DNA of 64,000 nucleotides, taken from assembly GCF_002751875.1 (NCBI RefSeq), contig NZ_NMZM01000012.1, forward strand, positions 1 through 64,000, given 5' to 3'. Within the stretch, counting starts at the first letter, position 1. Every line of letters starts with the position of its first letter. Position numbers and translations under genes: made by a program. Below the pieces are notes generated by a model that searched no databases, was not told the origin of the DNA, and saw only the letters and a program-made list of their open reading frames with translations. This document shows positions 32,001-51,499 of this stretch, in pieces. Source of the DNA: Oceaniglobus indicus. Its GTDB lineage: Bacteria > Pseudomonadota > Alphaproteobacteria > Rhodobacterales > Rhodobacteraceae.

Positions 32001-33038
32001 GGCATCGAGGCCGTCCGTCAGGACCGCGAAGCCCATGATCTGCCACCCGGATCGCCCCGACCGTCGTCCGTCGTGTTCGGAGCGCCCGAAGTGGTGCTCA
32101 TGGATCTGCCGCAACTGACCGAAGGCCAACCGCCGCACTGCCCTCTGATCGCCACACACGCGGTCCCGTGGCCTGGCGAGATGGCGGTGTTCCGCAGCCC
32201 GTCGATGGATGGGTTTGAGCTGTTGACCACGTTCGGCAGCCGCGCCCGCATCGGGACATTGGTCTCGGATTTCTTCGCGGGTCCGACCTCACGCTTTGAT
32301 CTCGGCAATGCGCTGGTGGTCGATCTGCTGACTGGCACGCTGGAGGGCGTCACCGACCTCACGCTGTTCGGCGGTGCCAATGCGCTGGCCATCGAGAGCG
32401 CGCCGGGTGTCTGGGAGGTCGTGCAGGCGGGCGCTCCCGAATTGATCGCGCCGGGGCGCTACCGGCTGAGGCGCTTGCTGCGCGGACAGCGCGGTACGGA
32501 AGGTGCAATGGCCAATCCGGCACCGGCGGGTGCCCGGGTTGTGGTGCTGGATGAGGCTCTGACAACCTTGCCCATCGCGGAGGCCGATCTCGGGCTGCCG
32601 TGGAACTGGCGCATCGGCCCCGCGAGCCGCCCAGTCAGCGATGAGACCTATGTTGCCCGGAGCTTTGCGCCCGCAGGCGTTGGGCTAAGGCCCTTTTCCG
32701 TGGCCCATGTGGAGCAGCCATGGCGCAGACCGCGCACGCGCGGCGATCTGACGATCCGCTGGACGCGACGGTCCCGCGCTCTTTCCGCCGACAGCTGGGG
32801 CGCTGTGGAGGTGCCGCTGGCTGAAGAACTGGAAGCCTACGAGATCGAGATCCTTGATGGTGCAGAGGTCAAACGCACGCTGAGCGCGACTACGACGAGC
32901 GTCATCTACACTGCCGCCCAGCAAACCGCCGATTGGGGTGCGCCGCTCGGGCTCGGTTCTACGCTCCGCATCAGCATCTATCAGCTCTCTGCCCTGATCG
33001 GGCGGGGGGCGGCCAAAACCATCACACTCCAACTCTGA
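29046..33038 (+). CDS. GTA-like tail tip / host-specificity megatron protein
   Basis: Predicted 1330-residue protein of the GTA gene 15 type. The N-terminus has a glycine-zipper-like hydrophobic stretch (GAAIGGSIGGAILG). Residues 430-750 are a TIM-barrel, glycoside hydrolase-like domain (RRMVLHYAHLCAAAGGVDAF, IWFTELGCPAID). Residues 800-960 match the phage-tail_3 domain and the end is beta-rich. It should form the tail-tip spike and bind or degrade surface sugars. It begins 9 bases after the peptidase. Confidence 0.9.
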   Translation: MASLVLGAAGAAIGGSIGGAILGVSAFTIGGFVGSTIGSVVDSWIISSLAPTQRIEGARMDNLRITSATEGAVIPRLYGRMRIGGNIIWATDFREETKTTTQGGGKGGGGGGKVQSSEYFYFASFAVALCEGPITGIGRIWADGKLLDTAGVTWRWYPGDEAQIVDPFMSAKMGASGTPAYRGTAYVVFEDLPLGDYGNRIPQMSFEVFRPLADPDTAEGLTRAVTMIPASGEFSYATEGIRRGSGGAQTPENLNAVSDTADMVVALDRLQAMAPKVESVSLVVAWFGDDLRAGTCKVRPGVEVLEKTTTPEDWSVNGVSRANAFLVSRDDQERPVYGGTPADFAVVQAIKEMKARGLRVTLYPFILMDVPADNTLPNPYSDNAAETGQPAFPWRGRITCSPAAGYAGTVDKTPTAASQVAALFGTATPANFSVSGQSVSWTGPSGNWGLRRMVLHYAHLCAAAGGVDAFLIGTEMPGLTTIRSGASTYPAVQAYRDLLADVRSILGSSTKIGYAADWSEYFGHQPGDTSGDVFFHLDPLWADPEIDFVAIDNYMPLSDWRDGFGHADGEGASAIGSSEPPNEGWPAIYDRAYLQSNIAGGEGFDWFYVSEADRAGQIRTQISDGAFGKPWVFRYKDLRNWWSNPHYNRPGGVESATPTAWVPQSKPIWFTELGCPAIDRGTNRPNVFFDPKSSESITPYFSRGWRDDTIQRAYLEATYLFWGDAANNPVSPVYGGPMVHVPECAAWTWDARPYPFFPELTDVWTDGANWRLGHWLNGRLGAVALAALVRHLCLRAGMSESRIDVTGLWGAVEGYAIGALESPRASITTLSRHFGFDAVETEGVIRFVMRGRAAVANVAHDDLVAAREGDVLELTRAQETELPQALKWQVARADEDYDAALVEARRITVDTTRIASESFPMAVPPEEAERRCRRALMEAWTGRETAAFRLPPSRLALDPADVVTLAHDGRDIPLRLVSIADAEARGIEAVRQDREAHDLPPGSPRPSSVVFGAPEVVLMDLPQLTEGQPPHCPLIATHAVPWPGEMAVFRSPSMDGFELLTTFGSRARIGTLVSDFFAGPTSRFDLGNALVVDLLTGTLEGVTDLTLFGGANALAIESAPGVWEVVQAGAPELIAPGRYRLRRLLRGQRGTEGAMANPAPAGARVVVLDEALTTLPIAEADLGLPWNWRIGPASRPVSDETYVARSFAPAGVGLRPFSVAHVEQPWRRPRTRGDLTIRWTRRSRALSADSWGAVEVPLAEELEAYEIEILDGAEVKRTLSATTTSVIYTAAQQTADWGAPLGLGSTLRISIYQLSALIGRGAAKTITLQL

Positions 33039-35271: not shown

Positions 35272-35781
35272 TCAGTCGAGCGCCTCCAGCGTGACGTTGA
35301 AGCTGCCCGATACCGGAACGCCGTCAGACATGTCGATAGTCTCTCCCCTGTTTTCCGAGGGCCCCAGCATGCCCATAAGACTACCGGTCATGCGCAGTGT
35401 GGCACCCTCGACCTCGTGGCTGTCGAGTGTGACTTGCAATCCGCCCCGGTTCGATTCCTCGAATGCCCAGAGCCGTTTCATCAGCGTGCCATCCTCGAAG
35501 CGCCACAGGGTCATCTCCGGGGCGCTGGCGGTCCAGTCCAGCGCGTCGAAACTCAGTCCCACCACAACGTTTTCTCTGCCATCTTCGTCGAGGCTGCGGG
35601 CATCGATCCAGATATAAGGTCGGCGTTCGCTGCCATTCCAGTCACTTTCCTCTGATAGCGGCACGATCCACGCTTCGCCGGCGATTGTCAGGGTGATCTC
35701 GCCCGAGCTTTGCGCTAAGCTCGGCGTGCTCAGGCCCATGGTGATCACGAGGCCGAGCAATGGTGCCGTTCTGAGAGTCAT
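35272..35781 (-). CDS. Exported protein of unknown function
   Basis: Predicted 169-residue protein with a signal peptide (PLLGLVITMGLSTPSLAQ, cut after AQ). The mature part is beta-rich and tryptophan-containing, with no recognised domain. Its end (GSFNVTLEALD) resembles the end of the exported protein at 39651-40124, so the two may be distant paralogues. It is the last gene of the leftward exported-protein block and abuts the prophage. Confidence 0.65.
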   Translation of the reverse strand: MTLRTAPLLGLVITMGLSTPSLAQSSGEITLTIAGEAWIVPLSEESDWNGSERRPYIWIDARSLDEDGRENVVVGLSFDALDWTASAPEMTLWRFEDGTLMKRLWAFEESNRGGLQVTLDSHEVEGATLRMTGSLMGMLGPSENRGETIDMSDGVPVSGSFNVTLEALD

Positions 35782-35803
35782 TTTGGGTCTACTCCTATGC
35801 AGA

Positions 35804-36301
35804 TTACCTTGATGGTGTCATATTGTGCCGCAGCCAGTCGTTGATCTCGTCGGCGATCCGCCCCGGCCCGTCACCCGACACCCCCCAGCCCGACAGCGGA
35901 ATGCGCGTCGCCGGGCGGGTGTTGCGGAAAACCAGCAGCACCTTGGATGTGCTGCGGCTTTCGCCAGAAGTATGGCTGCGGTCCAGCTCGGCGCTGTCGA
36001 GCGCATCGAGCGGATAGTCGTCGGAACGGGCGCGGAACTTTGACTCGCGGGCTACAGTGGCCCGCCCGGAGGTCTTGTCGAGCGTCAGGACCGTGCGTTC
36101 GGATATCGCGGCGTAGCCCAGCAGGAACGCCCCGTTGAGGCCCAGCAGCAGGATCAGTGCCGTCATGATCTCACCGCCAAGCAGGTTCACCAGCCCGAAA
36201 AGCGTGACCGGAATGACCGGAAACATCATGAACCACAGGATGAAGCGTGGGATTGCCAGTTCGACCTCGAAGCGGGCGGGGGTGTTGGTTCGGGCCATCA
36301 T
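35804..36301 (-). CDS. Membrane protein with two hydrophobic segments
   Basis: Predicted 165-residue protein. Two closely spaced membrane segments (about 20-35 and 45-62) are followed by a hydrophilic part with beta strands, LTLDKTSGRATVARESKFRA, similar to bacterial PH-like membrane proteins. The gene upstream encodes the same architecture. It starts at ATG 36301 (or 36298), overlapping the stop of that gene. Function unknown. Confidence 0.6.
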   Translation of the reverse strand: MMARTNTPARFEVELAIPRFILWFMMFPVIPVTLFGLVNLLGGEIMTALILLLGLNGAFLLGYAAISERTVLTLDKTSGRATVARESKFRARSDDYPLDALDSAELDRSHTSGESRSTSKVLLVFRNTRPATRIPLSGWGVSGDGPGRIADEINDWLRHNMTPSR

Positions 36302-36825
36302 GGCCGGCCGCCTGTCGGTGCCCGCCCGAGCCATGTGCTGATCAGGGTCGCCATGCGGATCACGTCCTGGGGGTCGGCGCGACCCATCGGGATCCGCGTG
36401 TCGCCAATGCCGCCGCCTGCCGGTCCGACAAGGTAAAGCTCCACCACCTCCCGGCTGGCGTGCTTGCCATAGCGGGTGCGTGGTTCAGCCCGTTCGAGGT
36501 GGGACAGTTGCAGTTTCTGCTCGGTGCGACCCTTCAGGCCAGTCACGCGCAGGCGGGCCTGATCAGCGGCGCGGTCAAGGCGCAACTGCGTAAGCTGCAC
36601 TGTCTCGCCAAGGATCATCCACCCGATCAGCGCCGTCACGGCCAGCACCATGACTCCGGTTCCGATTGCCCCGTCAGCAATCGCCGCAAGCGCCATTGCG
36701 ACGGCAAGCAGAATGGCACCCACCGTAATCGCAGCGCGGCGCATCGGGCGGTTCTCGATCTCGAGCACCGTGTCGCTGTCCTGCGTCACGCGCAGCGGAT
36801 CGGCAAGGAGGTTCGCAAGTGTCAT
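36298..36825 (-). CDS. Membrane protein with two hydrophobic segments
   Basis: Predicted 175-residue protein. Membrane segments occur near residues 30-47 and 55-72, and the cytoplasmic or periplasmic part begins TVQLTQLRLDRAADQARLRV. The layout equals that of the next gene on the strand, so the pair may be paralogues forming a heteromer. ATGA overlaps couple it to the genes on both sides. Confidence 0.6.
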   Translation of the reverse strand: MTLANLLADPLRVTQDSDTVLEIENRPMRRAAITVGAILLAVAMALAAIADGAIGTGVMVLAVTALIGWMILGETVQLTQLRLDRAADQARLRVTGLKGRTEQKLQLSHLERAEPRTRYGKHASREVVELYLVGPAGGGIGDTRIPMGRADPQDVIRMATLISTWLGRAPTGGRP

Positions 36826-37295
36826 GGTTCACTCAGTTCGGTGTCGAAGCGACCTTCCACCGTTTCACACGTCTCGGTCGCATCGCCCCGACATAGAATG
36901 GCAGAAAAGCTGGCCTCCATGCGACCCGCGCCGTCAAGGTCCAGCCGCTCGAACCGCATGATCGGTGGGGACGGCGCGCCGTTGCTGGTCCAGAGCGGGC
37001 CGTCCCCACCTTCGGGCCACATCTCGACCGTGATGCCGGTGAGTGGCACATCCGTGGAAGGCTGTCCCTGAAAGACAAGCCCGAAACTTACGTTGCCGTC
37101 GCCCGTCGCGTGCAGATTGACCATCGTCAGCGGGCCGATCGCGTTGACCTGCACCATCGCCGCGCCATCGTCAGTGCGCAGAACGTTCCAGGACAGGTCG
37201 GCCTCTTGCAGCCGCGCGGTAACGGTTCCGATGGGCTCCAGCGCGAGGGCCGGGGCGGCGATCAGGCAAAGGGCAAGGGAAAGGCGGTTCAGCAT
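36822..37295 (-). CDS. Exported protein, paralogue of 43616-44134
   Basis: Predicted 157-residue protein with a signal peptide (RLSLALCLIAAPALALEPIG). It shares order and motifs with the protein encoded at 43616-44134: GTVTARL versus GTITATF, HATGDGNVSF versus MTGDGNFVIE, W..NGAP versus W.SDGAP, and CETVEGRFDTEL versus CRAIEGTFDTPF. It has two cysteines near the end that could form a disulfide. Starting at ATG 37295 (not 37301) it overlaps the membrane-protein gene by ATGA. Function unknown. Confidence 0.65.
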   Translation of the reverse strand: MLNRLSLALCLIAAPALALEPIGTVTARLQEADLSWNVLRTDDGAAMVQVNAIGPLTMVNLHATGDGNVSFGLVFQGQPSTDVPLTGITVEMWPEGGDGPLWTSNGAPSPPIMRFERLDLDGAGRMEASFSAILCRGDATETCETVEGRFDTELSEP

Positions 37296-37431
37296 GACCA
37301 CCGCCCGCCGGAGCTGACCTTGCGGTGGCCTCCCAAGCTTTCAGACCGGATTTCACCGGGTGTTGCAGGGCCCTGCTGCGCCTCGTCTGACGCTGCGTGT
37401 GGGTCGTGCAGGCCGAAGACGGCAAGGCGGA

Positions 37432-37890
37432 TCATTCGCGAACCCTTCCCGTCACGCCAAGAGATGCCAGCGATGCGTCCGGCGCAAACCGCGCCGGGGC
37501 GCATTGGCCCTGCGTGCAAGGGCCAACGGTGAGGATTCGCCGGGTCAATTCGGGGGTGCAGTCGACGACGGTGGCTTCGCCCAACATGGAAAAGGTCTCC
37601 GTGCCACCCGTCCGTGTGAAGGCGCTTGGCGGGCCGAGGGGTGGGATCGGCAGATCGTAGCTGTTGCTGGCACCGATGGCCGGTTCCTCCACGGTGATGC
37701 GGCGCGCATGGGGCGCGATCCCTTCGGGGTAGCTGACCGTATAACCGACGATGCAAGAGCCGGGGCGATCGTCGCGCAGCGGGGCGAAACTGACCGTTCC
37801 CGGAGATGGGGCGATGGATCGGGTCTGTTCTTGCGGGACGCAGGCGGCAAGTAGGGCAGTGACGCTCAGGATTGTGACGATGCGGATCAT
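37432..37890 (-). CDS. Lipoprotein of unknown function
   Basis: Predicted 152-residue lipoprotein: MIRIVTILSVTALLAAC carries a lipobox (LAAC) and the mature chain begins at the cysteine. Four more cysteines occur in the mature part. No domain is recognised. Its start overlaps the stop of the von Willebrand A gene, so it may be co-translated with it and could anchor a complex at the outer membrane. Confidence 0.65.
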   Translation of the reverse strand: MIRIVTILSVTALLAACVPQEQTRSIAPSPGTVSFAPLRDDRPGSCIVGYTVSYPEGIAPHARRITVEEPAIGASNSYDLPIPPLGPPSAFTRTGGTETFSMLGEATVVDCTPELTRRILTVGPCTQGQCAPARFAPDASLASLGVTGRVRE

Positions 37891-39302
37891 TTGGTGTCTC
37901 CTACCGTGATTTGCGCGCGTGCGATGATCTGGCCCGACGCGCCGACGCGGTAGCGCAGTTCGTATGTTCCGGCCGCGTCAGGCGCTCTCAGGCCCGCGGG
38001 CGATCCCCATCGTGTTTGTGTGGCCGTGATGCGGGCATTGTCGGCGGACCCAAGCGCGGCAAGGATGATTTCGTCGCGTGGCCCCGAAGGGCCGGTCCAA
38101 ACGACCTCGAAGCGTTCTCCGATCGGCACAGGGCCGGGCGGCGTGATGCTGGCCTCGGTCGCGGTCAGGGTGATCGGAACCGTGGCGAGGATGCGTTGCG
38201 GTCTGTTCTGTTCATACCGCAGTTCGAAAACGCCAATTTCATCGGGCAGGCGAAGCGTCGCGGGGGAGCCGTTCCGGGTCAGCGTCACCGCCAGTGGTTC
38301 TCCCGCACCCGCGCCGGGACGGGCCAGTGTGATGCGGTCGCCATCGGCATCCGGGCCTGTCCAGCCGACCTCCAGCGCGCCGCCCGCAGGGGCCCCTTCG
38401 GGCGCGACGAGAGAGGCCTCGGGGCGCTCCTCGGTCAGCGGCACGGCAACGCGTTGAACGATATCGGATCTGACGGTCAAGGCCATCTCGCCCGCATGGC
38501 CCGGGGCGGTTGCGGCCACGGTGTAGTCGCCGGGCGGCAGGGCGATGTCGAAGGGATCTCGCCGCGCGCCTTGTGCGACAAGTGCGCCATCGGCATCGAT
38601 AATCTGCCAATCGGCGGCGCCCAGTGGTGCGGAGGTTTCGGCGGAGATCGCGAAAAGTGACATGACGACCGTAACGGCTACAGGCTCGGAGTCGGTGACC
38701 TGCCGCAACGCTGTGGCCAGTTCCGCGCCGGTCGAAGCCTCCAGCAGTAAACCGCCTGTCTGTTCGGGCAAGCAGGACAGCGCGTTGACCTCACCCGGGG
38801 CCATCCCGAAGCCGACAACATGTGCGCGCAGGGCGATCCCTTCGCTGGCAAACTGCGCGGCCAACGCGCAGGGATCGCCGCCGCAATTCTCAAGCCCGTC
38901 GGTAATAAGCACGATATCTGCGGCCTCGGCAGTCGGCGGGATCTGGTCGCGCGCCACCCGCAGCGCGTCGGTCAGCGGCGTCATGCCCTGCGGGATCAGC
39001 CCGACGATCCTGTTGGCCTGCCCTGCGCCGATATGGCGGCCCATGGGCGTGACCACTTCGATATCACCGCAATCGCCCCGTCGAGTGTGCCCATAGGCCA
39101 CGATTGCATAGGGTGCGTCCGGATCACGGTCGACGAAATAGCTGCCGATGACATTTCGTGCCACCTCGATCCGACTCAGATCACCCTCCAGTCGGTTCCA
39201 CATCGACCCGGAGGCATCGAAGACGATCACCGTAGCGATATCTTCGGCCCAGACGGGGGTGGCGATGCTGATCGCAAGGGCGAGGGCCGCGGCGCGCATC
39301 AA
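37887..39302 (-). CDS. Exported von Willebrand A domain protein
   Basis: Predicted 471-residue protein. A signal peptide (ALALAISIATPVWAED) precedes a VWA domain (about 20-200) with an intact metal site: DASGSMW (about 29), the threonine in GMTPLTDAL and the aspartate in ITDGLENCGG. Four cysteines in this part are probably disulfides. Residues 210-471 contain PEGA-like or Ig-like repeats (PPGDYTVAATAPGHAGEM, then two units ending in YELRYRVG / FELRYEQN). VWA domains mediate adhesion or complex assembly. It overlaps its neighbours by ATGA. Confidence 0.8.
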   Translation of the reverse strand: MMRAAALALAISIATPVWAEDIATVIVFDASGSMWNRLEGDLSRIEVARNVIGSYFVDRDPDAPYAIVAYGHTRRGDCGDIEVVTPMGRHIGAGQANRIVGLIPQGMTPLTDALRVARDQIPPTAEAADIVLITDGLENCGGDPCALAAQFASEGIALRAHVVGFGMAPGEVNALSCLPEQTGGLLLEASTGAELATALRQVTDSEPVAVTVVMSLFAISAETSAPLGAADWQIIDADGALVAQGARRDPFDIALPPGDYTVAATAPGHAGEMALTVRSDIVQRVAVPLTEERPEASLVAPEGAPAGGALEVGWTGPDADGDRITLARPGAGAGEPLAVTLTRNGSPATLRLPDEIGVFELRYEQNRPQRILATVPITLTATEASITPPGPVPIGERFEVVWTGPSGPRDEIILAALGSADNARITATQTRWGSPAGLRAPDAAGTYELRYRVGASGQIIARAQITVGDTK

Positions 39303-39649
39303 TCAAGCTCCGGCTTGCGGTTCGGGCAGGGAGCGTAGCGCTCCGACCAACCATTGCCGACGACGATCAGATCGCCGCCCATGCGCGTCATCAGCATTGT
39401 GCGTGTGCGCCAGTCCTGCCCTTCGCCGCGGCAATTGGCCCAGTAAAGCGTGGCGTTGTCCCAGCCCTCGACAATTTGCGGATCGGTCAGGCGGCAACTC
39501 GATTCATAGTAGACAATCCGGTCGCCCAGCAGCGTGACGCGTTGATCGCTGACCGGGACGGTGCAGTCGAACGCGTCATAGACCCCATCGGCGGGGTTCG
39601 CGCCTGCGGGGGCGGCAAGGATCATCATGGCCAGTACGATATTTCGCAT
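39299..39649 (-). CDS. Small exported protein of unknown function
   Basis: Predicted 116-residue protein with a signal peptide (IVLAMMILAAPAGANPADG). The mature 98 residues have four cysteines (likely two disulfides: FDC, SSC, ANC, APC) and many tryptophans. Overlaps the VWA gene by ATGA and lies one base after the end of the upstream gene, so it belongs to the same operon. No domain is recognised. Confidence 0.6.
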   Translation of the reverse strand: MRNIVLAMMILAAPAGANPADGVYDAFDCTVPVSDQRVTLLGDRIVYYESSCRLTDPQIVEGWDNATLYWANCRGEGQDWRTRTMLMTRMGGDLIVVGNGWSERYAPCPNRKPELD

Positions 39650-39650
39650 G

Positions 39651-40124
39651 TCAGTTCACCGTTTCCAGTTGCGCGTTGAAGCTGAAAGTGACGGGTAGGG
39701 TCCCGGATGCCGGGCCGCCGCTGACCTCGCCGGTGATCGTGCCTGACAGGGTGACGGCCCCGTCAGTGGCGGCCATCTCTTCAAGCTCCAGGTCCAGAGT
39801 GTCCTGATCGCCCTGCCAGTTGCGCCCCATGTCCCGCGCAAAGGCGATATCGAGAACGACCTCGCCGGGATCGGGCAACTCGCCGCTGAGCCTCAGCGTC
39901 AGGATGACTGGCCCCAGGTCACCCTCTGTCTGTGCTGCCAGGAACCCGGCATCGACGAAACTGCCGATGATCGTGGCATCGGACAGATCGGCGGAGACTG
40001 CCAGTTCCAAGGGCTGGTCCCCGAAGCTACCGGTCACAAGCCCGCCCATGTCTTGCGCCGCGACAGCCGCCGCCAGCAGGCAGGACATGGCATAGATCAG
40101 ACTTCTGAGACACCGCATGTTCAA
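39651..40124 (-). CDS. Exported protein of unknown function
   Basis: Predicted 157-residue protein, first gene of the leftward block. A signal peptide (SLIYAMSCLLAAAVAAQDMG) is followed by a beta-rich mature chain; the end (LPVTFSFNAQLETVN) resembles that of 35272-35781. Acidic segment DTLDLELEEM in the middle. It is divergent from the 40259 gene over 134 bases that hold likely regulatory sites. Confidence 0.6.
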   Translation of the reverse strand: MNMRCLRSLIYAMSCLLAAAVAAQDMGGLVTGSFGDQPLELAVSADLSDATIIGSFVDAGFLAAQTEGDLGPVILTLRLSGELPDPGEVVLDIAFARDMGRNWQGDQDTLDLELEEMAATDGAVTLSGTITGEVSGGPASGTLPVTFSFNAQLETVN

Positions 40125-40181
40125 TACTCGCTGCTTTTATCATCCCTCAGACACCTGAGTGTAGCCGCGCAAGCAAAGCCT

Positions 40182-40256
40182 CGCCCCGTTCATTTGGATG
40201 GGGCGCAGAGGATTATTGCGTGGTAGATTGGATTTGTTTTTATTGCGGATTGCGGG
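40182..40256. promoter_or_regulatory. Divergent control region with inverted and direct repeats
   Basis: CGCCCC (40182-40187) and GGGGCG (40200-40205) form an inverted repeat. ATTGCG occurs three times, at 40215-40220, 40242-40247 and 40249-40254, the last two as a tandem ATTGCGG pair just before the ATG at 40259. The repeats could bind the response regulator encoded downstream, whose genes lie in the adjacent operon. This is an inference from position and repetition. Confidence 0.35.
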
Positions 40257-40258
40257 TC

Positions 40259-40744
40259 ATGACAGTCACGGATCGCCTCTTGCGATGTCTTCTTGCGCCG
40301 GCGATGCTTGTGCTCGCCGCCACTGGGGCGATGGCGGATGGCCCCGTGCTGAGGCTGACGGGTGCGGTTAACGGTGGTCTGGTGGAGATCACCCGTGCCG
40401 ACCTTGACGGAATGATGTGGCACGAGATCGCGACCTCGACCACGGTCACCGACGGCCAGCCGCTGTTCCGGGGTGTTTTGATGCGCGACATCCTGGCCCA
40501 TGCCGGGGCGGATGGCGAGGTGGTGACCGCGCAGGCGCTGAACGATTACGTCATCGACATTCCGATCAGCGATTTTCAGGACTTCGACGTGATCGCGGCG
40601 CTTTACATGGACGGCGTCGCCCTGACACCGCGGGACAAGGGGCCCATCTGGATAATCTATCCGCGTGACGATCACGGTGTCCTGGCCGATATCCGCTATG
40701 ACATGCGATGGGTCTGGCAACTTGTCGCGCTGCATGTGCAATGA
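40259..40744 (+). CDS. Exported molybdopterin oxidoreductase-fold protein lacking the Mo cysteine
   Basis: Predicted 161-residue protein. A signal peptide (APAMLVLAATGAMADG) precedes a stand-alone domain with VLRLTGAVNGGLVEITRADL and DYVIDIPISDFQDFDVIAAL, the pattern of small oxidoreductase molybdopterin-binding (sulfite oxidase-like) domains. The mature chain has no cysteine, so the usual molybdenum ligand is missing and catalysis is unlikely. It overlaps the histidine kinase gene, which suggests a periplasmic sensor or partner role. The frame is open to 40220. Confidence 0.7.
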   Translation: MTVTDRLLRCLLAPAMLVLAATGAMADGPVLRLTGAVNGGLVEITRADLDGMMWHEIATSTTVTDGQPLFRGVLMRDILAHAGADGEVVTAQALNDYVIDIPISDFQDFDVIAALYMDGVALTPRDKGPIWIIYPRDDHGVLADIRYDMRWVWQLVALHVQ

Positions 40745-42075
40745 GGCGGGCGGGCGGTTCCCTTGGGTATGGCGGGCTGGCAGCGCTGATCGTGATCTGC
40801 CTTGGACTTCTGGTGCTGGCAGCCGCCAACATCGCCCGGCTGGAACGCCAGATGCAGATTTCAGCGACCGAAAACATGACCTGGATCTTCGGTCAGACCC
40901 AGATCGAGGCGCTGAATCTGGCCGCCGCCTTGTCTGATGGCGCAGAGGACGACCTGATTCAGCTTCGCTTCGATCTTCTTGTGTCGCGCCTGAACCTGCT
41001 GCGGGACGGTCCGCAATGGCGCTTTCTGCAAGAGGCCGGGCTGGCCGAAGGGTTGATGGGCTGGCGCGCGGGATTGCTCGCGCTCGATCCGGCGCGGGGC
41101 GGCGACCGTGGGGCGCTCGCGGCGCATGTCACCGCGTTGTCGACTGCCCTGCGCGCCAAGGCCAGCCGGGTGATGGCGCGCGAATGGCAGATACAGTCCG
41201 AACGGCTGGACCGCCTCGGGCAAATGCATCTGCTGGCCCTCGCGGCCATCCTCGGCGCGCTGCTGGCAGGGGCCACGCTGGCTGCCCTGCTCATCGACCG
41301 CGAACGCCGCCTGGTGCGGGCGGAGCTGGACCGTGCACGGGCCGAGCGGCTGGAGCGTGATCTGAACGTCGAGCGCACCGTGTCCGACGGATATCGGCGC
41401 CTCACCGATCTGATCGCGCATCAGGTGCGCACGCCGCTCGCGGTGATCGACAGCGCCATGCACCGGCTGACCCGGCCGGGCAAACCGCCCACCCTCGAGG
41501 TGATCCGCGCCAAGGCGGAGGTGTCGCGCGACGCGGTGGCGCGGCTGGTCCGTCTGACAGACACCGCTCTGTTGATGGCGCGCGCCGATCGCGGTGCCAT
41601 CGCGCCCGAACTGGCCCGCCACGATCTCGCGGGAATCGCGGCGATGGCCATAGAGGACGTGCAATCCCTGCGAGGGTCACAGCAAGGCGGGCATCTGCGC
41701 TTCCAGGCCTCGAACCAGCCGGTGCACGCGCATTGCGATCCGTTGCTGACGCAGGAAATCCTGTTCAACCTGCTCACCAACGCGTTGCTCTACGCGGCCC
41801 CCGGTGGCGATATCGAGGTCATTCCGGCTTTTGTTGACGAGGCCGCCGTATGTGACATCTGCGACCGTGGTCCCGGCATGACGCAACCAGAGCGGGACAG
41901 CGCCTTCGACAATTTTGCACGCGGTGCGGCACATCGCGACCTGCCGGGATCCGGCCTCGGGCTGCCGCTTGCGCGCCATCTGGCGCGACTTCAGGGCGGT
42001 GACGTGACACTGCTGCCGCGTGAGCAAGGCGGGCTGATCGCGCGCCTGATCCTGCCGGCTGGGGTGGCTGCATGA
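40741..42075 (+). CDS. Membrane sensor histidine kinase
   Basis: Predicted 444-residue kinase. Two membrane segments (about 13-30 and 163-183) enclose a helical periplasmic part of 130 residues; no HAMP domain is evident. The H box is LIAHQVRTPL with His227. The ATPase part shows NLLTNAL (N box), CDRGPGM (G1) and GSGLGLPLARH (G2). It overlaps the response regulator by ATGA and follows the molybdopterin-fold protein, which may supply its signal. Confidence 0.88.
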   Translation: MRRAGGSLGYGGLAALIVICLGLLVLAAANIARLERQMQISATENMTWIFGQTQIEALNLAAALSDGAEDDLIQLRFDLLVSRLNLLRDGPQWRFLQEAGLAEGLMGWRAGLLALDPARGGDRGALAAHVTALSTALRAKASRVMAREWQIQSERLDRLGQMHLLALAAILGALLAGATLAALLIDRERRLVRAELDRARAERLERDLNVERTVSDGYRRLTDLIAHQVRTPLAVIDSAMHRLTRPGKPPTLEVIRAKAEVSRDAVARLVRLTDTALLMARADRGAIAPELARHDLAGIAAMAIEDVQSLRGSQQGGHLRFQASNQPVHAHCDPLLTQEILFNLLTNALLYAAPGGDIEVIPAFVDEAAVCDICDRGPGMTQPERDSAFDNFARGAAHRDLPGSGLGLPLARHLARLQGGDVTLLPREQGGLIARLILPAGVAA

Positions 42076-43100
42076 GCAGGCCGCTGATCCTCTGCGTCGA
42101 GGACGAACCATCCCTGCGCGACGATATCGCCGCAGATCTGCGCGAGGCGGGATATGACGTTTCGACCGCCCGCGATGCCTCCGAGGCGCTTGTGCGGCTG
42201 AACGAGCGTCGACCGGAGCTTGTGCTTTGCGACATCGTGATGCCGGGCATGGACGGCCGCGCGCTGCTGGCCCACCTGCGGGCTACCCGGCCCGACCTTG
42301 ACGATATTCCGTTCGTTTTCCTGACGGCCTTGTCCTCGCGCGAACAGATGATCGAAGGGCGACAGGCGGGGGCCGATGATTATCTGACGAAACCAATCGA
42401 CTATGACCTTCTGCGCGCGATGATCGCAGCGCGGCTCGACCAGGTGCACCGGTTGCGCTCTGCCCGCAGCGAGGGCTTTCAGATCGCCGCGCTGGACCGG
42501 CTGGCGATCGGGATCGTTCTTCTGGATAGCGATGGCGGCGTTGTCCATACGAATTTCGCCGCGAAAAATCTTGCACAACAGGCCCAAAGCAGCCTTGGGT
42601 CGCGTCTGACCGCGCAGGGCGAAGACGGACGCAGGCTCTGCGCGCTTGTCGCAGAGGTGACATCGGATACGCGGAGTGGCGCTGCGCTTTTGCTCAATCC
42701 CGATGACCGCCGTGTGATGGTGATTGGCCGATCGCTTGGGTCGAGCCGGGCGCAGAACGGAGCAACCGCCATGCTGACGCTGTGCGATCCGATGCGCCGG
42801 GAGGCTCTTGATGCCGCAGCACTTCGTCAGTTGTTCGACCTGACCCCAACGGAGGCCTGCGTCGCACGCCTTGTGGCCGACGGGCTGCGCCGGGATCAGG
42901 TGGCGGAGCGCCTTGGGGTGTCCGCAACAACCGTCGCCTTCCACTTGCGCAACATCTTCGACAAGACCGGAACCCACCGCCAGGCCGATCTGGTGGCGCT
43001 GATCCTGTCGATGCCGATGGCAAGCGTCGACCCGCTAGATCCGCCTGCTGCGGAAAACACCCCCACCATCCATCACTTCCGAGGGAGAAAGAGACCATGA
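42072..43100 (+). CDS. Response regulator with PAS-like middle and LuxR HTH
   Basis: Predicted 342-residue regulator. The receiver (1-120) has the acidic pair in VEDEPS, Asp54 in LVLCDIVMPG, and the lysine in YLTKPID. Residues 130-235 resemble a PAS domain (ALDRLAIGIVLLDSDGGVVH). The C-terminal LuxR-type helix-turn-helix reads LTPTEACVARLVADGLRRDQ and ...TVAFHLRNIFDKTGTHRQAD. It probably activates the exported-protein genes next to it. ATGA overlap with both neighbours. Confidence 0.88.
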   Translation: MSRPLILCVEDEPSLRDDIAADLREAGYDVSTARDASEALVRLNERRPELVLCDIVMPGMDGRALLAHLRATRPDLDDIPFVFLTALSSREQMIEGRQAGADDYLTKPIDYDLLRAMIAARLDQVHRLRSARSEGFQIAALDRLAIGIVLLDSDGGVVHTNFAAKNLAQQAQSSLGSRLTAQGEDGRRLCALVAEVTSDTRSGAALLLNPDDRRVMVIGRSLGSSRAQNGATAMLTLCDPMRREALDAAALRQLFDLTPTEACVARLVADGLRRDQVAERLGVSATTVAFHLRNIFDKTGTHRQADLVALILSMPMASVDPLDPPAAENTPTIHHFRGRKRP

Positions 43101-43567
43101 CCCGTTCATTACTTCTTCTTGCCGCGTGCCTGTGTGCATCGGTCACGACCGCCAATGCCGACACGCCCAGGGATCGCACGGTCGCCGCCATCGAGGCCGC
43201 AGGCTGCGTCGTCGACGGTACGAACGTCAATGACGTCCTCGACGGGCTCGCCCTGAGCGATGATGAATTTCGCGTCATCGGCGAAGGACTTGTTGCAGAG
43301 GGGCTCGCGGATGTGTCGCAAATGGGTGTGTTCCGGCTGACAACCCCCGGATGCACAGCGACAGCCCAAACACCCAAAGAGCGGACGATCACCGCGATCG
43401 AGGCCGCAGGCTGCACCGTTGACAGGTCGAACATCAACGAGATCCGCGACGGGCTCGCCCTGAGCGACGACGACTTCCGCGTCATCGGCGAAGAGCTGAT
43501 GGCCGAGGGGCTGGCAAGCGTTTCGGAGGCCGGCGCATTCATGCTCAACACCCCCAATTGCAATTGA
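43097..43567 (+). CDS. Exported protein with two tandem repeats
   Basis: Predicted 156-residue protein. A signal peptide (LLLLAACLCASVTTANAD) is followed by two repeats of about 60 residues: DRTVAAIEAAGCVVDGTNVN / ERTITAIEAAGCTVDRSNIN, then DGLALSDDEFRVIGEGL / DGLALSDDDFRVIGEEL. Each repeat has a cysteine early and one at the end (TTPGC / NTPNC), likely one disulfide per repeat. It overlaps the regulator gene and is the first target candidate. No family is recognised. Confidence 0.7.
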   Translation: MTRSLLLLAACLCASVTTANADTPRDRTVAAIEAAGCVVDGTNVNDVLDGLALSDDEFRVIGEGLVAEGLADVSQMGVFRLTTPGCTATAQTPKERTITAIEAAGCTVDRSNINEIRDGLALSDDDFRVIGEELMAEGLASVSEAGAFMLNTPNCN

Positions 43568-43615
43568 CCCCGGCGCGCCGCGCGGACGCTGCCTGACAGA
43601 TAGATTGGAGATGAC

Positions 43616-44134
43616 ATGAGAAAACTCGCATTACAGATGGCCCTTGCCATTGCCGTCACCACCCCGGCCGCCGCTTGGGAGGTCGAGGAAATCGGCACCA
43701 TCACGGCCACCTTCGGCGACGAAACCATGCAACAACCGACCGTGATCGTGACGAGTGGTGACGAGGTTTCACCGACGGCCTACATGATCCGGACAATCGG
43801 CAACTTCTCCAGTCTCAACCTGATGACCGGCGACGGCAATTTCGTGATCGAAGCCGATTACATGACCCATGCGCCGGGGCCGGACACCGCGCCGATTTCG
43901 GCCGCCGTGACCTATGCACCCGCAGGGTGGACGCAGATGTGGTTGTCGGACGGCGCGCCGGAGCCGCTGGAGGTGACATTCACGACATTGGAGATCGAGG
44001 GCGACGCAGGCCACGCGACAGGCACGTTCCGCGGCGTTTTGTGTTTCGCCGACGGGATGGGCGCGGAGGCGGACCCCGGCAACTGCCGCGCGATCGAAGG
44101 CACGTTCGACACGCCATTCTTCATCGAGGAATAG
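43616..44134 (+). CDS. Exported protein, paralogue of 36822-37295
   Basis: Predicted 172-residue protein with signal peptide (ALQMALAIAVTTPAAAWEV). It shares motif order with 36822-37295 (GTITATF, MTGDGNF, LWLSDGAP-like MWLSDGAPEPL, GVLCF, CRAIEGTFDT). GGAGA precedes the ATG. The two paralogues lie on opposite sides of the kinase genes, one in each divergent operon, so the cluster grew by duplication. Confidence 0.65.
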   Translation: MRKLALQMALAIAVTTPAAAWEVEEIGTITATFGDETMQQPTVIVTSGDEVSPTAYMIRTIGNFSSLNLMTGDGNFVIEADYMTHAPGPDTAPISAAVTYAPAGWTQMWLSDGAPEPLEVTFTTLEIEGDAGHATGTFRGVLCFADGMGAEADPGNCRAIEGTFDTPFFIEE

Positions 44135-44165
44135 CGGCATTGAAACGGTTATCTTGGAGGCTGAC

Positions 44166-44741
44166 ATGAAGCGACTTCTGTGGACCCTGACCCTGATGTT
44201 CGGCGGATCAGGCCTGCCTGCACTTGCCGAAAACCCGCCTCTGTGCGGGACGGCGGGGCAAGGCGATTGGCCGCGCATTCAGGAAATCTTTACAGGTGAC
44301 TGGCTGATCGAACATCAGGCGGGCTATGCCGCAATCGGAGGCATGATCCTGCCGTTTCCCGGCGCTGACGAGGTCGACACGATTACTATCTGGCAGTTGG
44401 GCGAGACGTTGCAGGCAACCCACCCCGAAATGCAGGCGCCGCTGGTCCTGCGGCTGGCGGACGAGCCGCGCTGGACCGTCGAGACCGACAACCCCGAGAT
44501 CCCGGAGCCGCTGCTCAGCCCCGATGACGTCGCCCTTGTGGCGGATTGTTCACAGCTTGAGCTGCCACGGTTGATCGGAACCTCCACTGCGGTTGTCGAC
44601 GGAACGAGAATGGATTTCACCTACCGGATGATGGCGCTGGACTGGTCCACGCTTTACGGGATCATGGAGATCACTTCGGTCGTCCAAGGCACCCCGATCG
44701 AGGCCCGCCGCACGGTCTGGATGCGCGCGACAGGCGGCTGA
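44166..44741 (+). CDS. Exported protein of unknown function
   Basis: Predicted 191-residue protein. GGAGG precedes the ATG at 44166 and a signal peptide (LTLMFGGSGLPALAENPP) follows. The mature chain has two cysteines (PPLCGTAG and ADCSQLEL) and a glycine/tryptophan-rich centre; motifs GDWLIEHQAGYAAIG and GTRMDFTYRMMALDW are unfamiliar. It is the last gene of the rightward operon, closed by the hairpin at 44772. Confidence 0.6.
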   Translation: MKRLLWTLTLMFGGSGLPALAENPPLCGTAGQGDWPRIQEIFTGDWLIEHQAGYAAIGGMILPFPGADEVDTITIWQLGETLQATHPEMQAPLVLRLADEPRWTVETDNPEIPEPLLSPDDVALVADCSQLELPRLIGTSTAVVDGTRMDFTYRMMALDWSTLYGIMEITSVVQGTPIEARRTVWMRATGG

Positions 44742-44771: not shown

Positions 44772-44802
44772 ATGACTGGCGGCTTGGAAAGCCGCCAGTC
44801 AT
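44772..44802 (+). terminator. Perfect 14-base hairpin after exported-protein operon
   Basis: ATGACTGGCGGCTT (44772-44785) pairs perfectly with AAGCCGCCAGTCAT (44789-44802) around GGA. It lies 30 bases after the last stop codon of the rightward operon and probably ends its transcript or protects its 3' end. No T run follows on either side. Confidence 0.6.
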
Positions 44803-45142
44803 ACAAAAGCGTGAAGGACTCATGCGCGTTTTACCATCGCCCTCGAAAAAAAAATGGTAAAGGATAGCCAATTTATCCCGAGAACTGTATTTGGCCGATG
44901 CCACTCTCCAGTTTTCGGCAGGTATTTAGACCACTTCAAATGCGCACATAATGGAGGAATCAAGCCGAGCGGTGCCTTTACCAGCATGGGACATTTCAGT
45001 TGGACGTCAGCCCTGTCTGTGTAGGTGTCGGTAAAAAATTAAAAAATCGGTATTTAAATATTCGGAGAAGGTTCGACGTCAGTCGCGTTCCCTCCGCCAC
45101 TTGACTTTGTTTCCATTGAGTTTTTCGGGGTCTTTGCGGCAG

Positions 45143-45165
45143 TACCCCACATAACGCCCCACATA
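45143..45165. repeat. CCCCACATA direct repeats, candidate integrase arm sites
   Basis: CCCCACATA occurs at 45145-45153 and 45157-45165, 12 bases apart. The 11-base form TACCCCACATA at 45143-45153 recurs exactly at 51282-51292, next to the integrase start. Short direct repeats near both ends of a tyrosine-recombinase element are typical of arm-type integrase or excisionase sites. Assignment is by pattern only. Confidence 0.4.
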
Positions 45166-45518
45166 GAAAAAACGCTTAGAATCGCTGTTGCGGTCCATTC
45201 GTCACGCGCACGCGCACGCGCGGGGAAAAACTGTGTTAACAGGTGGGCGAAGCATTCACCCCGGTTTTCTTCCCGAAAGGTGCAGAGTTCGGGATGCCCC
45301 CCGACTTGCGTCAGTTTCTCTGAATTGTGGAAACGGGCAAACGACAATCCCGCCCGGTCCTTGCCACGATGCCTAGTGTTCTGCACATGACTGGAGATCC
45401 CCTATTGACGCAGAGCGTCGGGCGCGGGTCCAGCATCCCAGAGCGAAACTGTCAGATTTCGGCTCTGAGCCCAATTTGAACGCTTTTCCATTCTGACAGT
45501 TAGCGAAATCTATAAAGG

Positions 45519-45535
45519 CCTTACCACCAACCTTG
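45519..45535. repeat. Candidate left attachment core
   Basis: CCTTACCACCAACCTTG here matches 51500-51516 (CCTTGCCACCAACCTTG) at 16 of 17 bases in direct orientation, and a TGACAGT lies 5-25 bases before each copy. If this is the core, the element is about 6.0 kb. The arm-like repeats at 45143 would then lie outside it, which argues for a different boundary. Low confidence. Confidence 0.3.
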
Positions 45536-45614
45536 GCATGCAGATCATAAGAGCTTGACTAACAGGTCAAGCTCTGCTCGCTTAGAATTATAGAAACTCC
45601 GCAAGAGGTTCGCT

Positions 45615-46037
45615 ATGGCCCATTCTTATCTTCGCTTTTGCGCGATGATCTGCGCTGTGCCGATGATCCTGTCAACGCCAGTATCGGCTGATTCCACGAC
45701 CGTTTTGGAGTCGAAATGCGCTGAAGGTCAGGCCGCGAATGAGCATGAGTATTGGGAATACATCAAAAACAACGCGATACGGACAGCCGACAACTACGCA
45801 GCGGAAAACAATCCCCGAGCAGTTTTCATCTTCGCAGATGTCGAGGTCTACTTCCAGATTGACGGTGAATACGTTGGTGAGTATCTGGTCAAGCTTTTGT
45901 CTTCTGCACATACGGGGACAGCCCTTGCGATGCTGCGTCCGAATTTCGAATTTTGTGGGGACCTATCTAGGCTCGACGATGAGCGCGAGGATCTCTTTAC
46001 GGTCGTGGTCGCAAAGCTGGATGGAGTAGATTTCTAA
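45615..46037 (+). CDS. Exported protein of unknown function
   Basis: Predicted 140-residue protein with a signal peptide (RFCAMICAVPMILSTPVSAD) and a small acidic mature domain with two cysteines (ESKCAEG and FEFCGDL). AGAGG precedes the ATG. Composition is clearly lower in GC than the chromosome-like flanks, which suggests transfer. It lies next to, and on the other strand from, the satellite genes; it may be cargo of that element or a host gene at its edge. Confidence 0.6.
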   Translation: MAHSYLRFCAMICAVPMILSTPVSADSTTVLESKCAEGQAANEHEYWEYIKNNAIRTADNYAAENNPRAVFIFADVEVYFQIDGEYVGEYLVKLLSSAHTGTALAMLRPNFEFCGDLSRLDDEREDLFTVVVAKLDGVDF

Positions 46038-46175
46038 GACTGCACCGTCGCCAACGTTCGCTAAGTCAGCATAGCTGACCCTAGGAGCGACGTACGAACG
46101 ACTAGGACGCACCATATACTGACTGGGCATCTTATGTCAGGTGCAGAACACTAGCGCGCTTAAGCCCGCCCCCGG

Positions 46176-46445
46176 TCAGTTGGGTAGGGAATCGACGCTA
46201 TCTCGCGCCAGCTTCACTAATGCCATCAGCGCGCGACGGTTTCGCTCCATGGCCTTCGACCTGTCGCCATGCACCCAAGCCCCATTGCCGGGACCAGATG
46301 GCGCGCCGCCGCCCGCGCCATGCATCCGGCAGACTTGCCAGCCGCGCCGCGCCGGGGCGTTGCACCGTTCGCCTGTTGTCTTGGCCTTGGCATGGCATCT
46401 GGGCGCGCTGTGCGCCTTTTGCATGGGGTTGGCGTCACTTTCCAT
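46176..46445 (-). CDS. Small HGA-motif protein of mobile elements
   Basis: Predicted 89-residue protein. CHAKAKTTGERCNAPARRGW followed by CRMHGAGGGAPSG is a widespread pattern in phages and genomic islands (two Cys-x-His pairs that could bind zinc), often near terminase-like or recombination genes; its function is not known to me. I chose the ATG at 46445, overlapping the upstream stop; 46469 and 46424 are alternatives. It is the last gene of the satellite operon. Confidence 0.6.
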   Translation of the reverse strand: MESDANPMQKAHSAPRCHAKAKTTGERCNAPARRGWQVCRMHGAGGGAPSGPGNGAWVHGDRSKAMERNRRALMALVKLARDSVDSLPN

Positions 46446-47049
46446 TGCTACCCCGCCCCCCGTGCGCAACGGCCCCGACGATGGCTTGTCCGCCTTTGTT
46501 CACTGTCACATGCTCGACCGTGACCTTTTGCTGCCCGCCTGTTCGATAGCGTTTCAACGCCTCCATCTGGGTGACATAGGTGCGAGCCAGTTTGTTCAAC
46601 GCGCGTTCGGCGGCGTCTTGCTGGCGAATGGTCTCCACAAGGTTCATCCGCCGCGCCATCATCATCGTGGCTTGATGGATTGCCCCCATCTGCACTGCCA
46701 GCATGGTCTCCAATTCATCACGCGGCTGCACACCGCGCACCACTGACAGCAAAAAATTGCTGGCCCCTTCATCTACCTTACGGCCATGCGATCCAATGGC
46801 TGCCACCTGACCTTGAACCCCTGCCATAAAACTTGGATCACAGGTGGCAAGGTCTGCCATCATCAGGATGTTCGCCAAGTCAGGGTCCGCATGAGTGAAC
46901 GTGATTTGCAGCACATCATCTTTCAATCTGAGTGTCATCGGCGGGCCAGCCGCTCTTGCAGCCTGCTTTTCTGCCACTGCTTTGATGCGGTCCTGTTGCG
47001 CCCTGGTTAACGGCAACGGCGCAGTCTGTTTTTTGTTTTTGGTGTTCAT
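46435..47049 (-). CDS. Satellite protein of unknown function
   Basis: Predicted 204-residue protein. The start is very basic (MNTKNKKQTAPLPLTRAQQD), followed by a mostly helical body with PDLANILMMADLATCDPSFM and NLVETIRQQDAAERALNKLA. No domain is recognised. It follows the primase gene on the same strand and overlaps the HGA-motif gene by 11 bases. The charge and position would suit a DNA-binding packaging or copy-control protein, but nothing shows this. Confidence 0.55.
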   Translation of the reverse strand: MNTKNKKQTAPLPLTRAQQDRIKAVAEKQAARAAGPPMTLRLKDDVLQITFTHADPDLANILMMADLATCDPSFMAGVQGQVAAIGSHGRKVDEGASNFLLSVVRGVQPRDELETMLAVQMGAIHQATMMMARRMNLVETIRQQDAAERALNKLARTYVTQMEALKRYRTGGQQKVTVEHVTVNKGGQAIVGAVAHGGRGSNGK

Positions 47050-47107
47050 CGTGGCGTTTCTCCTGCCCGCTGATTTGTAGGTCTGAAATCGCGCGTCATA
47101 AGTAATA

Positions 47108-48211: not shown

Positions 48212-48309
48212 TCTTTGCCCTCCCCATAGGCAAGGGCGGCAATGGATCTTGCAACAGATGGCGAAACGCCAAGCTGGCGACATATGCGGGCAATGCGCAG
48301 GGCCATCAT
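48208..48309 (-). CDS. 33-residue HTH-like micro-gene
   Basis: A 33-codon frame, too short for usual gene finders, links two satellite genes by ATGA overlaps on both sides. It translates as MMALRIARICRQLGVSPSVA then RSIAALAYGEGKE. The stretch RQLGVSPSVARS resembles a short helix-turn-helix. Double coupling and intact frame argue that it is translated. Function unknown; the second ATG at 48306 is possible. Confidence 0.5.
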   Translation of the reverse strand: MMALRIARICRQLGVSPSVARSIAALAYGEGKE

Positions 48310-48674
48310 GCAGCACCTCCGCCACCGGAAACGCGCTCGACCTTGGCGTTGAGAAAGTAGACGCCGAATTTTGCGCGGTCCGTCGCCGCGTCGTTTTCGT
48401 ACATTTCCTTGATGATCGGCACGCCGTATTCATGGCGCAGAATGCAAACCCGGTCAGAAATGCGCACCGGGCTGGCACAATAGACCGGCTGTTCAATCAA
48501 GGCGTCCAAGATGATCCGGTTGCCTTTCGCAACGCTGATCTGATGAGTATCGCCACTATCGGCAGTGATCTTGTAGCGCGCCGGGGTACGGTTTGCTGGC
48601 AGGTCGCGCCACGCTTTGACGCGCAGGGCATTGGGTGGTGGGCGGTCGCCCCTTGTCTGTGAGTTGAATGTCAT
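48306..48674 (-). CDS. Satellite protein of unknown function
   Basis: Predicted 122-residue protein. I prefer ATG 48674, which has AAGGA at good spacing; 48716 adds 14 residues. Residues 25-110 include PARYKITADSGDTHQISVAK and DRVCILRHEYGVPI, a pattern that looks like a helix-turn-helix domain of the type found in mobile-element regulators. The end is glycine-rich. It is coupled to the micro-gene and lies downstream of the AlpA-like regulator. Confidence 0.55.
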   Translation of the reverse strand: MTFNSQTRGDRPPPNALRVKAWRDLPANRTPARYKITADSGDTHQISVAKGNRIILDALIEQPVYCASPVRISDRVCILRHEYGVPIIKEMYENDAATDRAKFGVYFLNAKVERVSGGGGAA

Positions 48675-48776
48675 TGTCTGATTTCCTTGAAACCAGAACG
48701 GGACGGGGGTATTCATATGCCTGTCAAAGCCGAAACGAATAAAGCCGCTGCCCGTTCAATGGGTGGCGGTTTTCCG

Positions 48777-48962: not shown

Positions 48963-49189
48963 GTGATGCGCTCCAACTGGTTGCGTTGGATTGCATCATG
49001 CCGTGAAGAATACAGGGTGAAATAGCTAGGCAGGTTTCGAAAACCGACTTAGGTAGACCGCCGAACCTATCCACCCAGCTTGCGCGGTTTGGGACAGATG
49101 GCGCTCTCCATTCCAGGTAGACGCTCCTCCCACGCAATAGAAATAAGCGGCTTTATTGGGGGGGTAGGTTCCTGAAACGGGTAGGTAGG

Positions 49190-51276: not shown

Positions 51277-51281
51277 CGACC

Positions 51282-51455: not shown

Positions 51456-51499
51456 GTGCATGTATTTGATATCATTTATAATAAATTTTGACAGTGGTT

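Follow-up and report, generated by a model that had tools for sequence, protein, structure and literature searches.

We describe here a locus at positions 35272-44741 of a 64,000-nucleotide stretch of the Oceaniglobus indicus genome (contig NZ_NMZM01000012.1, positions 1 to 64,000; hereafter, the window), which we read as a probable mobile regulon for envelope proteins under a pterin sensor of the PruR-DTB kind. The host genome is 3.67 Mb in size, and its relatives are mostly Rhodobacteraceae and Roseobacter-type bacteria. The locus is filled by 14 genes in two divergent blocks, of which eight lie on the minus strand in the order g8-g7-g6-g5-g4-g3-g2-g1, with g6 encoding a VWA protein, and six on the plus strand in the order g9 to g14, with g10 encoding a kinase and g11 a regulator. 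Neighbouring genes overlap by a few bases at g2/g3, g3/g4, g5/g6, g6/g7, g9/g10, g10/g11 and g11/g12, when the downstream starts of g2 and g10 are used. Judged by eye, g1, g4, g6, g7, g8, g9, g12, g13 and g14 each begin with a signal peptide, g5 has a lipobox (LLAAC), and g2, g3 and the kinase g10 have membrane segments; the gene products look mostly exported or membrane-bound. The layout, with 14 genes and seven overlaps, bears out the initial annotation of the locus, which had described tightly overlapping exported and membrane genes around a kinase-regulator pair.

The plus block opens with g9 (40259-40744), a homologue of the PruR-type pterin-binding proteins; its start is taken at a conserved ATG, and the open reading frame extends up to 40220. 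It is followed by g10 (40741-42075), encoding a membrane histidine kinase of the DcpA-TorS-BaeS (DTB) type, and by g11 (42072-43100), encoding a response regulator with a LuxR-type (GerE) DNA-binding domain. Three genes for exported proteins complete the block: g12 (43097-43567), in which two tandem repeats are visible by eye, g13 (43616-44134), and g14 (44154-44741), whose product is predicted to fold as a small beta barrel. A strong inverted repeat at 44773-44801, directly after g14, is possibly a terminator.

The minus block starts with g8 (39651-40124, with an ATG at 40088 also possible), an exported protein, and continues with g7 (39299-39649), an exported protein of 116 aa, and g6 (37887-39302), the exported VWA protein, which has a DASGS motif and C-terminal repeats. 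Downstream lie g5 (37432-37890), a putative lipoprotein, g4 (36822-37301), an exported protein with a predicted LpqH-like beta fold, and the two paralogous two-transmembrane proteins g3 (36298-36825) and g2 (35804-36334, start probably at 36301), the latter with a weak bacterial-PH match. The block ends with the exported protein g1 (35272-35781). Iterated profile searches place g1, g4, g8 and g13 in one family, here named EXP, and g2 and g3 in a second one; the paralogues that had been reported in both blocks are therefore extended to three minus-strand members and one plus-strand member of EXP and to the g2/g3 pair.

Matches over the Pfam cut-offs are restricted to the VWA domain of g6, PF00174 in g9, HisKA and HATPase_c in g10, and Response_reg and GerE in g11, which confirms the kinase-regulator pair. 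The Pfam scan of the remaining cluster proteins gave no family over cut-off, and an NCBIfam scan of g1 to g10 gave the exported proteins among these no name over cut-off. The earlier statement that the products belong to no known family thus holds in Pfam for most of them but fails for g9, which has PF00174 over its cut-off and solved pterin-binding structures among its matches.

PruR is a periplasmic SUOX-like protein without the molybdenum cofactor (Moco) cysteine, and its partner in PruR-DTB pairs, which are widespread in Proteobacteria, is a sensor kinase of the DTB type with a WX7E motif in its periplasmic domain (PMC13259868). A profile of 12 relatives of g9 matched the PDB sequences 7kos/7kou (4.8e-37), 7rkb (1e-31), 7kom (5.5e-24) and 7kp2 (8.8e-22). 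Three of these four are named pterin-binding protein and 7kom is named Oxidored_molyb domain protein, while 7KOS and 7KP2 are the PruR proteins of Agrobacterium and Vibrio (PMC13259868). The 146-aa core of g9 contains no cysteine, and cysteine is absent from the last 140 residues in 99 of 102 g9 homologues. In an alignment to 7kos, the pterin tyrosine (Y of LNDY) and the tryptophan of RWVWQ are present in 78 of 80 g9 homologues; they would correspond to Tyr104 and Trp160 of the published work (PMC13259868). From its conserved ATG, g9 has 161 aa with a signal-peptide-like N terminus by eye, to be set beside the PruR criterion of about 170 aa with a secretion signal.

To place this pair among its relatives, we scanned 84,980 named species with the g9 alignment and obtained 394 relatives, the best 80 of which were examined as loci. 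The g9 and g10 genes of the window overlap by 4 bp; across the 80 loci the g9 homologue is adjacent to a kinase in 78, with an overlap of 4 in 60 of these 78. The WX7E motif occurs in g10 as WIFGQTQIE and in 44 of the 78 kinases when their first 110 residues are searched. Because of the missing cysteine, the conserved tyrosine and tryptophan, the WX7E motif and the PDB profile match, g9-g10 is a PruR-DTB sensor pair by the criteria that can be tested in sequence, and pterin binding is predicted for it. The sensor half of the locus is therefore of a known kind, the relationship of g9 to PruR having been missed in the initial annotation.

The window shares with PruR-DTB systems the two-gene unit of PruR and membrane kinase, the SUOX-type protein without Moco cysteine, the tyrosine and tryptophan and the WX7E motif (PMC13259868), but differs from them by an added LuxR-type regulator, a divergent regulon with an operator, and a large block of exported proteins. 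With the PruA-PruR-DcpA pathway of Agrobacterium tumefaciens it has in common the same type of periplasmic pterin receptor; however, DcpA acts on cyclic di-GMP (c-di-GMP; PMC13259868), whereas g10 is a histidine kinase with a predicted transcriptional output.

We then assessed the recurrence of the gene set. Among 198 genomes of the family, the VWA protein g6 has five close orthologues outside the host (70-82% identity), and g2 finds matches at 70-82% identity in the same five genomes. The order and orientation of the set are preserved at the five orthologous loci, where some genes are absent or lost at contig ends. In the other sampled genome of the host's genus, neither a g9 nor a g2 match was found, and distant EXP and VWA matches lie elsewhere in that genome. 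A gene-neighbourhood search, the check suggested with the initial annotation, thus recovers the set in 6 of the 198 genomes when the host is counted, and finds it complete, in variant form or truncated at contig ends at 22 of the 80 loci. The genes of the related loci were called with a simple in-house caller that may miss genes, misplace starts or split frames, and many loci end at contig ends, so that the number of loci given for each family is approximate.

The 22 closest loci show the window arrangement, a close variant of it, or a part where the contig ends, and they are defined by holding at least one of g2/g3, g5b, g7 and g12. Here g5b is a 183-aa exported gene lying between g4 and g5 in 16 of the 22; it is absent from the window, where only about 130 bases (37302-37431) separate g4 from g5. 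These loci come from Antarcticimicrobium, Sedimentitalea, Seohaeicola, Aliiroseovarius, Roseovarius, Loktanella, Thalassorhabdomicrobium, Maritimibacter, Palleronia, Paracoccus and Mesorhizobium, among others, and hold EXP in all 22 cases, VWA in 18, g2/g3 in 18, g5b in 16, g14 in 14, g7 in 9 and g12 in 9. Across all 80 loci the kinase is found in 79, the regulator in 75, a 323-aa multi-span protein that we call MWD in 43, VWA in 40, EXP in 27, an SH3-like exported protein in 19, g2/g3 in 18, g5b in 16 and g14 in 16.

A variant cluster at eight loci has a different VWA paralogue (32-33% identity) in place of g6 and carries MWD in seven of the eight; its loci keep genes of the g2-g3-g4-g5b-g8 set, with single genes absent from some. 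The host itself has a second, simpler locus on contig 21 (L052, 306000-325000), in which regulator, kinase and PruR diverge from MWD, VWA and the SH3-like protein. Since other genera preserve both the order and the orientation of the genes, the set represents more than a chance grouping.

Alignment of the spacer between g8 and g9 from the window and 19 relatives reveals one block that is conserved throughout, GCCCCGTTCRTTTGRANGGGGC or close to it. In the window, the candidate operator is the palindrome GCCCCGTTCATTTGGATGGGGC at 40183-40204 (no strand), situated between the two divergent promoters. At up to three mismatches the host genome contains two matches to the pattern, namely this site and one at the second PruR locus on contig 21, which carries the same operator at two mismatches; the reversed pattern gave none. 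In the 198 genomes, a 21-base form searched at one mismatch gave 11 sites in 10 genomes, nine of them just upstream of a PruR gene, as compared with 4 for the reversed control.

The 80 loci, comprising 1.30 Mb, contain 57 distinct sites at up to three mismatches, against 0 for the reversed pattern and 0, 0, 0, 2 and 0 for five shuffled patterns. Forty of the 57 sites precede PruR, and 51 precede one or another gene of the system; 54 fall outside called genes, and the other three inside over-long called starts. The site is present in 48 of 62 loci with system genes, compared to 2 of 18 other PruR loci. At several loci the site is missing in front of PruR and precedes MWD or VWA instead.

The position of the operator relative to the predicted promoters is also fixed. 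In the window, the predicted -10 element of the g8 operon, TACACT (40158-40163, minus strand), and that of the g9 operon, TAGATT (40224-40229, plus strand) within the extended TGGTAGATT, both have their first base 30.5 bases from the operator centre. We compared 24 sequences, taken from the window, a plasmid copy and the 22 loci, with 18 distinct flank pairs among them. In 21 of the 24, a -10-like TAnnnT on the g8 side starts exactly 30.5 bases from the centre, and no other offset was found over the 45 bases searched; on the g9 side it starts at 29.5-31.5 bases in 23 of the 24. At 37 further distinct sites, TAnnnT lies at exactly 30.5 bases on 20 of 74 sides, where about one would be expected (74/64), and the next commonest offset has 5. 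With a spacing of 30.5 bases to the -10, the operator centre falls at about -42.5 on both sides. This is the usual position of a class II activator of the LuxR type.

The recognition helix of the regulator (T-V/I-A-F-H-L/M-R-N) is nearly invariant across loci. We infer that g11 binds the palindrome and that it activates rather than represses. A reading of the palindrome as an RNA hairpin was set aside, as both predicted promoters have the site in their -35 region, at a constant distance. Operator matches outside PruR loci are unproven as targets: as candidates for additional targets they were dropped, no fixed-distance -10 being found at two odd matches from the 198 genomes or at seven single matches from a class-level search. 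One class-level genome (G355, L211-L213) has four operator-like sites; one of them precedes MWD at a PruR locus, two lie close to rhamnose-synthesis genes, and a -10 at the fixed distance is absent from all four, the PruR-locus site included.

Next, we examined the proteins that the operator would control. EXP is found in 26 of the 198 genomes, with 43 matches; among the 23 strongest, 20 lie in the clusters of the six genomes that carry the set, two near a PruR gene (G094 and G016) and one has no PruR nearby (G159). The relatives of g4 and g13 match each other directly at 28-32% identity. Only matches of this g4-g13 type are significant pairwise, and the membership of g1 and g8 comes from iterated profiles, which are prone to drift. 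EXP relatives also occur next to the SH3-like exported protein.

Structure prediction, another check suggested with the initial annotation, was run for g4 and g14. The g4 model (mean pLDDT 87.6, 45 sequences) has mycobacterial LpqH, the 19-kDa lipoprotein, in its three best rows (VIA Z 9.6, 9.2 and 9.0; root-mean-square deviation 2.9-3.2 over 104-106 residues), with designed barrels next at 8.2, so that the margin over which LpqH leads is small. Foldseek gave the model a probability of 1.00 with no E below 0.001. The likeness concerns the predicted fold of g4, whereas identity between LpqH and EXP is 8-11% and the EXP proteins of the window have, by eye, no canonical lipobox. Searched against the PDB at E up to 10, the EXP profile listed three S-layer chains and none from LpqH. 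LpqH may be a lead on the fold of EXP, as a resemblance of fold only. The g14 model (pLDDT 82.8, 14 sequences) is a small beta barrel; a family assignment for g14 was dropped, many fold matches being equal, with VIA Z up to 10.0 to designed barrels.

For g2/g3, no bacterial-PH match over the Pfam cut-off was obtained: bPH_10 appears in 12 of 34 members, at best with E 0.0024 and 17.8 bits against a cut-off of 27. The best PDB match of the g2/g3 profile is 8kei_D, the human cytochrome b-245 chaperone 1, at E 0.018 over most of the length, which possibly hints at the fold of this two-transmembrane family. Distant relatives of g2/g3, single or as a tandem pair, lie near a conserved ffh-like gene of about 500 aa (by eye) at L076, L079, L080, L082 and L084, likely as a housekeeping form of this unnamed membrane family.

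The VWA protein has one weak match in the PDB (E 0.0096), and g6-type VWA matches occur in 75 of the 198 genomes at E 1e-10. Secreted VWA proteins with repeated C-terminal domains from the same bacterial family have the VWA domain and the repeat type of g6, but among their 15 loci (L040-L054) only the second locus of the host has PruR, kinase and regulator alongside. In ten of these 15 loci (L041-L044 and L046-L051), the long VWA proteins are found near a gene of 950-960 aa. The VWA protein had been proposed as the organiser of a periplasmic or surface complex. An irreplaceable role of this kind is argued against by its presence in only 40 of the 80 loci (18 of the 22 closest, some of them cut) and by the swapped paralogue of the variant cluster.

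The surroundings of the cluster were then considered. On one side, prophage modules (Sak4, primase/helicase, terminase, portal, head/protease, tail terminator, tape measure and endolysin/peptidase) extend on the plus strand from 2261 to 35211 and end 60 bp before g1; on the opposite side lie an integrase (49987-51240, minus strand) and a primase-polymerase. In 5 of the 22 closest loci the cluster has homologues of the window prophage genes beside it, namely in Paracoccus (L096, on both sides), Aliiroseovarius (L099), Roseovarius (L100), a Rhodobacteraceae metagenome-assembled genome (L095) and Sedimentitalea (L097); identities are 82-89%, with 61% for an additional piece of 80 residues. Mesorhizobium sediminum and Paracoccus denitrificans, which belong to different orders, have copies of the variant cluster that are 97.5% identical over 8.5 kb (L107, L110), and this points to a recent transfer between orders.

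Plasmids carry the genes as well. A variant copy with the operator is found on a Pseudosulfitobacter plasmid (L216) between two IS110 transposase genes; the two IS110 stretches have no blastn match to each other and thus do not look like copies of one element. A g2-type gene is present on 31 plasmid records, 30 from Pseudosulfitobacter and one from Paracoccus denitrificans. Neither of the two plasmid loci tested has a homologue of the window prophage genes, and megablast found no plasmid match to the window cluster. The suggestion that the locus may be transferred is upheld by the prophage-gene homologues at five loci, the plasmid copies and the near-identical copy across orders: transfer of the cluster is well supported, while movement by the phage itself is not shown.

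Within the prophage, 29046-33038 encodes a tail protein with a GTA TIM-barrel-like domain, in a siphovirus-type context, and among phage records Rhodobacter phage RcKemmy matches the region best (71% over 5% of the query). Beyond the cluster, 45000-54000 is a stretch of lower GC content (mostly 0.55-0.60) with the primase-polymerase, the integrase and a short helix-turn-helix-like open reading frame, possibly a satellite.

Our favoured explanation, to which we assign a probability of roughly 0.6, is that a PruR-DTB pterin sensor governs the locus as a mobile, divergent regulon of envelope-protein genes. It builds on the recurrent gene set, the homology of g9 and g10, the operator, the promoter geometry and the flanking phage-gene homologues, all obtained by computation. 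In this model, g9 would be exported and bind a reduced pterin in the periplasm, where it would engage the periplasmic domain of g10, which in turn would set the phosphorylation of g11. From the single palindrome centred at about -42.5 of both promoters, g11 would control g9-g14 and g8-g1. The output would consist of four EXP proteins, the VWA protein, the small barrel, the lipoprotein and the two two-transmembrane proteins, and the cluster would travel with prophages and plasmids. These output proteins probably alter the cell surface or attachment by analogy with PruR-DcpA; this role is our best guess because the PruR pathway of Agrobacterium controls attachment and biofilm formation (PMC13259868). 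The initial proposal of a regulated envelope system is thus retained as to one regulated unit with envelope-like products, and revised as to its novelty, the regulatory half being of the known PruR-DTB kind.

Several observations weigh against this explanation. In the sensor pair, WX7E was not found within the first 110 residues of 34 of the 78 kinases, none of which is in the 22 closest loci, and the periplasmic part of g10 measures about 130 residues by eye as opposed to about 190 aa in the published description (PMC13259868). No pteridine reductase was identified in the host: the NCBIfam model used gave 39 matches with none over cut-off; the same model had none over cut-off in 14 control genomes either and is hence uninformative. 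As to the regulon, 14 of the 62 loci with system genes have no site at up to three mismatches, and loci without the site carry nearly the same recognition helix. In 385 class-level genomes, a search at two mismatches gave 13 sites in 9 genomes compared with 4 control matches; only 3 of the 13, two of them from the host and one from G355, are known to be at PruR loci, with gene calls lacking around five of the remaining sites. The VWA gene is present in only half of the 80 loci and EXP in only about a third (40 and 27, respectively). Homologues of the window prophage genes were not found at 17 of the 22 closest loci, several of which end at contig ends, and a search of viral contigs confirmed none that encodes the sensor. 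Finally, both the link between g11 and the palindrome and the function of the output are predictions.

The main rival concerns the output. The locus could be an envelope-stress regulon in which the kinase senses damage directly, g9 only tunes the response, and the VWA, EXP and two-transmembrane proteins form a repair or maintenance complex. All products except the regulator look envelope-associated or exported, EXP relatives adjoin the SH3-like exported protein, and the weak bacterial-PH and 8kei_D matches of g2/g3 (12 of 34 members, best E 0.0024, and E 0.018) would suit such a role. However, the sensor pair has recognised PruR-DTB features, the worked example of PruR concerns pterins and biofilm (PMC13259868), and no named stress family exceeded the Pfam cut-off among the proteins scanned, so that we regard an envelope-stress function as rather unlikely. 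Less probable still is that the genes are fitness cargo of the prophage, a lysogenic conversion that blocks phage adsorption or superinfection at the surface while the pterin sensor only times it. The cluster does abut phage late genes, and the prophage-gene homologues at L095, L096, L097, L099 and L100 agree with this; against it stand the absence of any such homologue from 17 of the 22 closest loci, some of them truncated by contig ends, and from the two plasmid copies tested, as well as the lack of a viral contig match, with which packaging by phage would remain compatible.

A gathering of unrelated exported proteins by chance beside a transferable two-component system seems very improbable to us. 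The composition of the loci does vary, with EXP in 27, the SH3-like protein in 19, g2/g3 in 18 and g14 in 16 of the 80, but order and orientation are the same across genera, EXP, of which the window holds four members, occurs in only 26 of the 198 genomes, and the common operator comes with matched promoters. Synteny and operator thus largely refute this rival.

Beyond the regulon under a PruR-DTB sensor, we tentatively consider that a temperate phage may bring along an entire regulatory circuit for pterin sensing, together with a surface-protein output of its own, a doubtful but possible extension. The operators of the prophage-linked and contig 21 loci are nearly the same and related loci have a common recognition helix, so that lysogeny could link an additional surface programme to the pterin signalling of the host. 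If so, the two regulators could cross-control each other.

Literature searches on VWA with kinase in Paracoccus and on VWA with prophage in Rhodobacteraceae returned nothing on the locus, and those on Oxidored_molyb with histidine kinase, on bacterial PH with envelope stress and on pterin with response regulator returned no target set. Neither the literature search nor the available text of PMC13259868 gave target genes or a DNA site for PruR-DTB. Within the literature searched, as far as its accessible text extends, we found no description of the operator or the divergent regulon, nor of EXP as a family or of the phage-linked mobile form. The locus supplies PruR-DTB with a candidate operator of fixed promoter geometry and with recurrent candidate targets that have no Pfam family. 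Pterin-dependent transcription would thereby become directly testable, Paracoccus denitrificans, a harmless laboratory organism, carrying a variant of the cluster, and several exported protein families would gain a first functional context.

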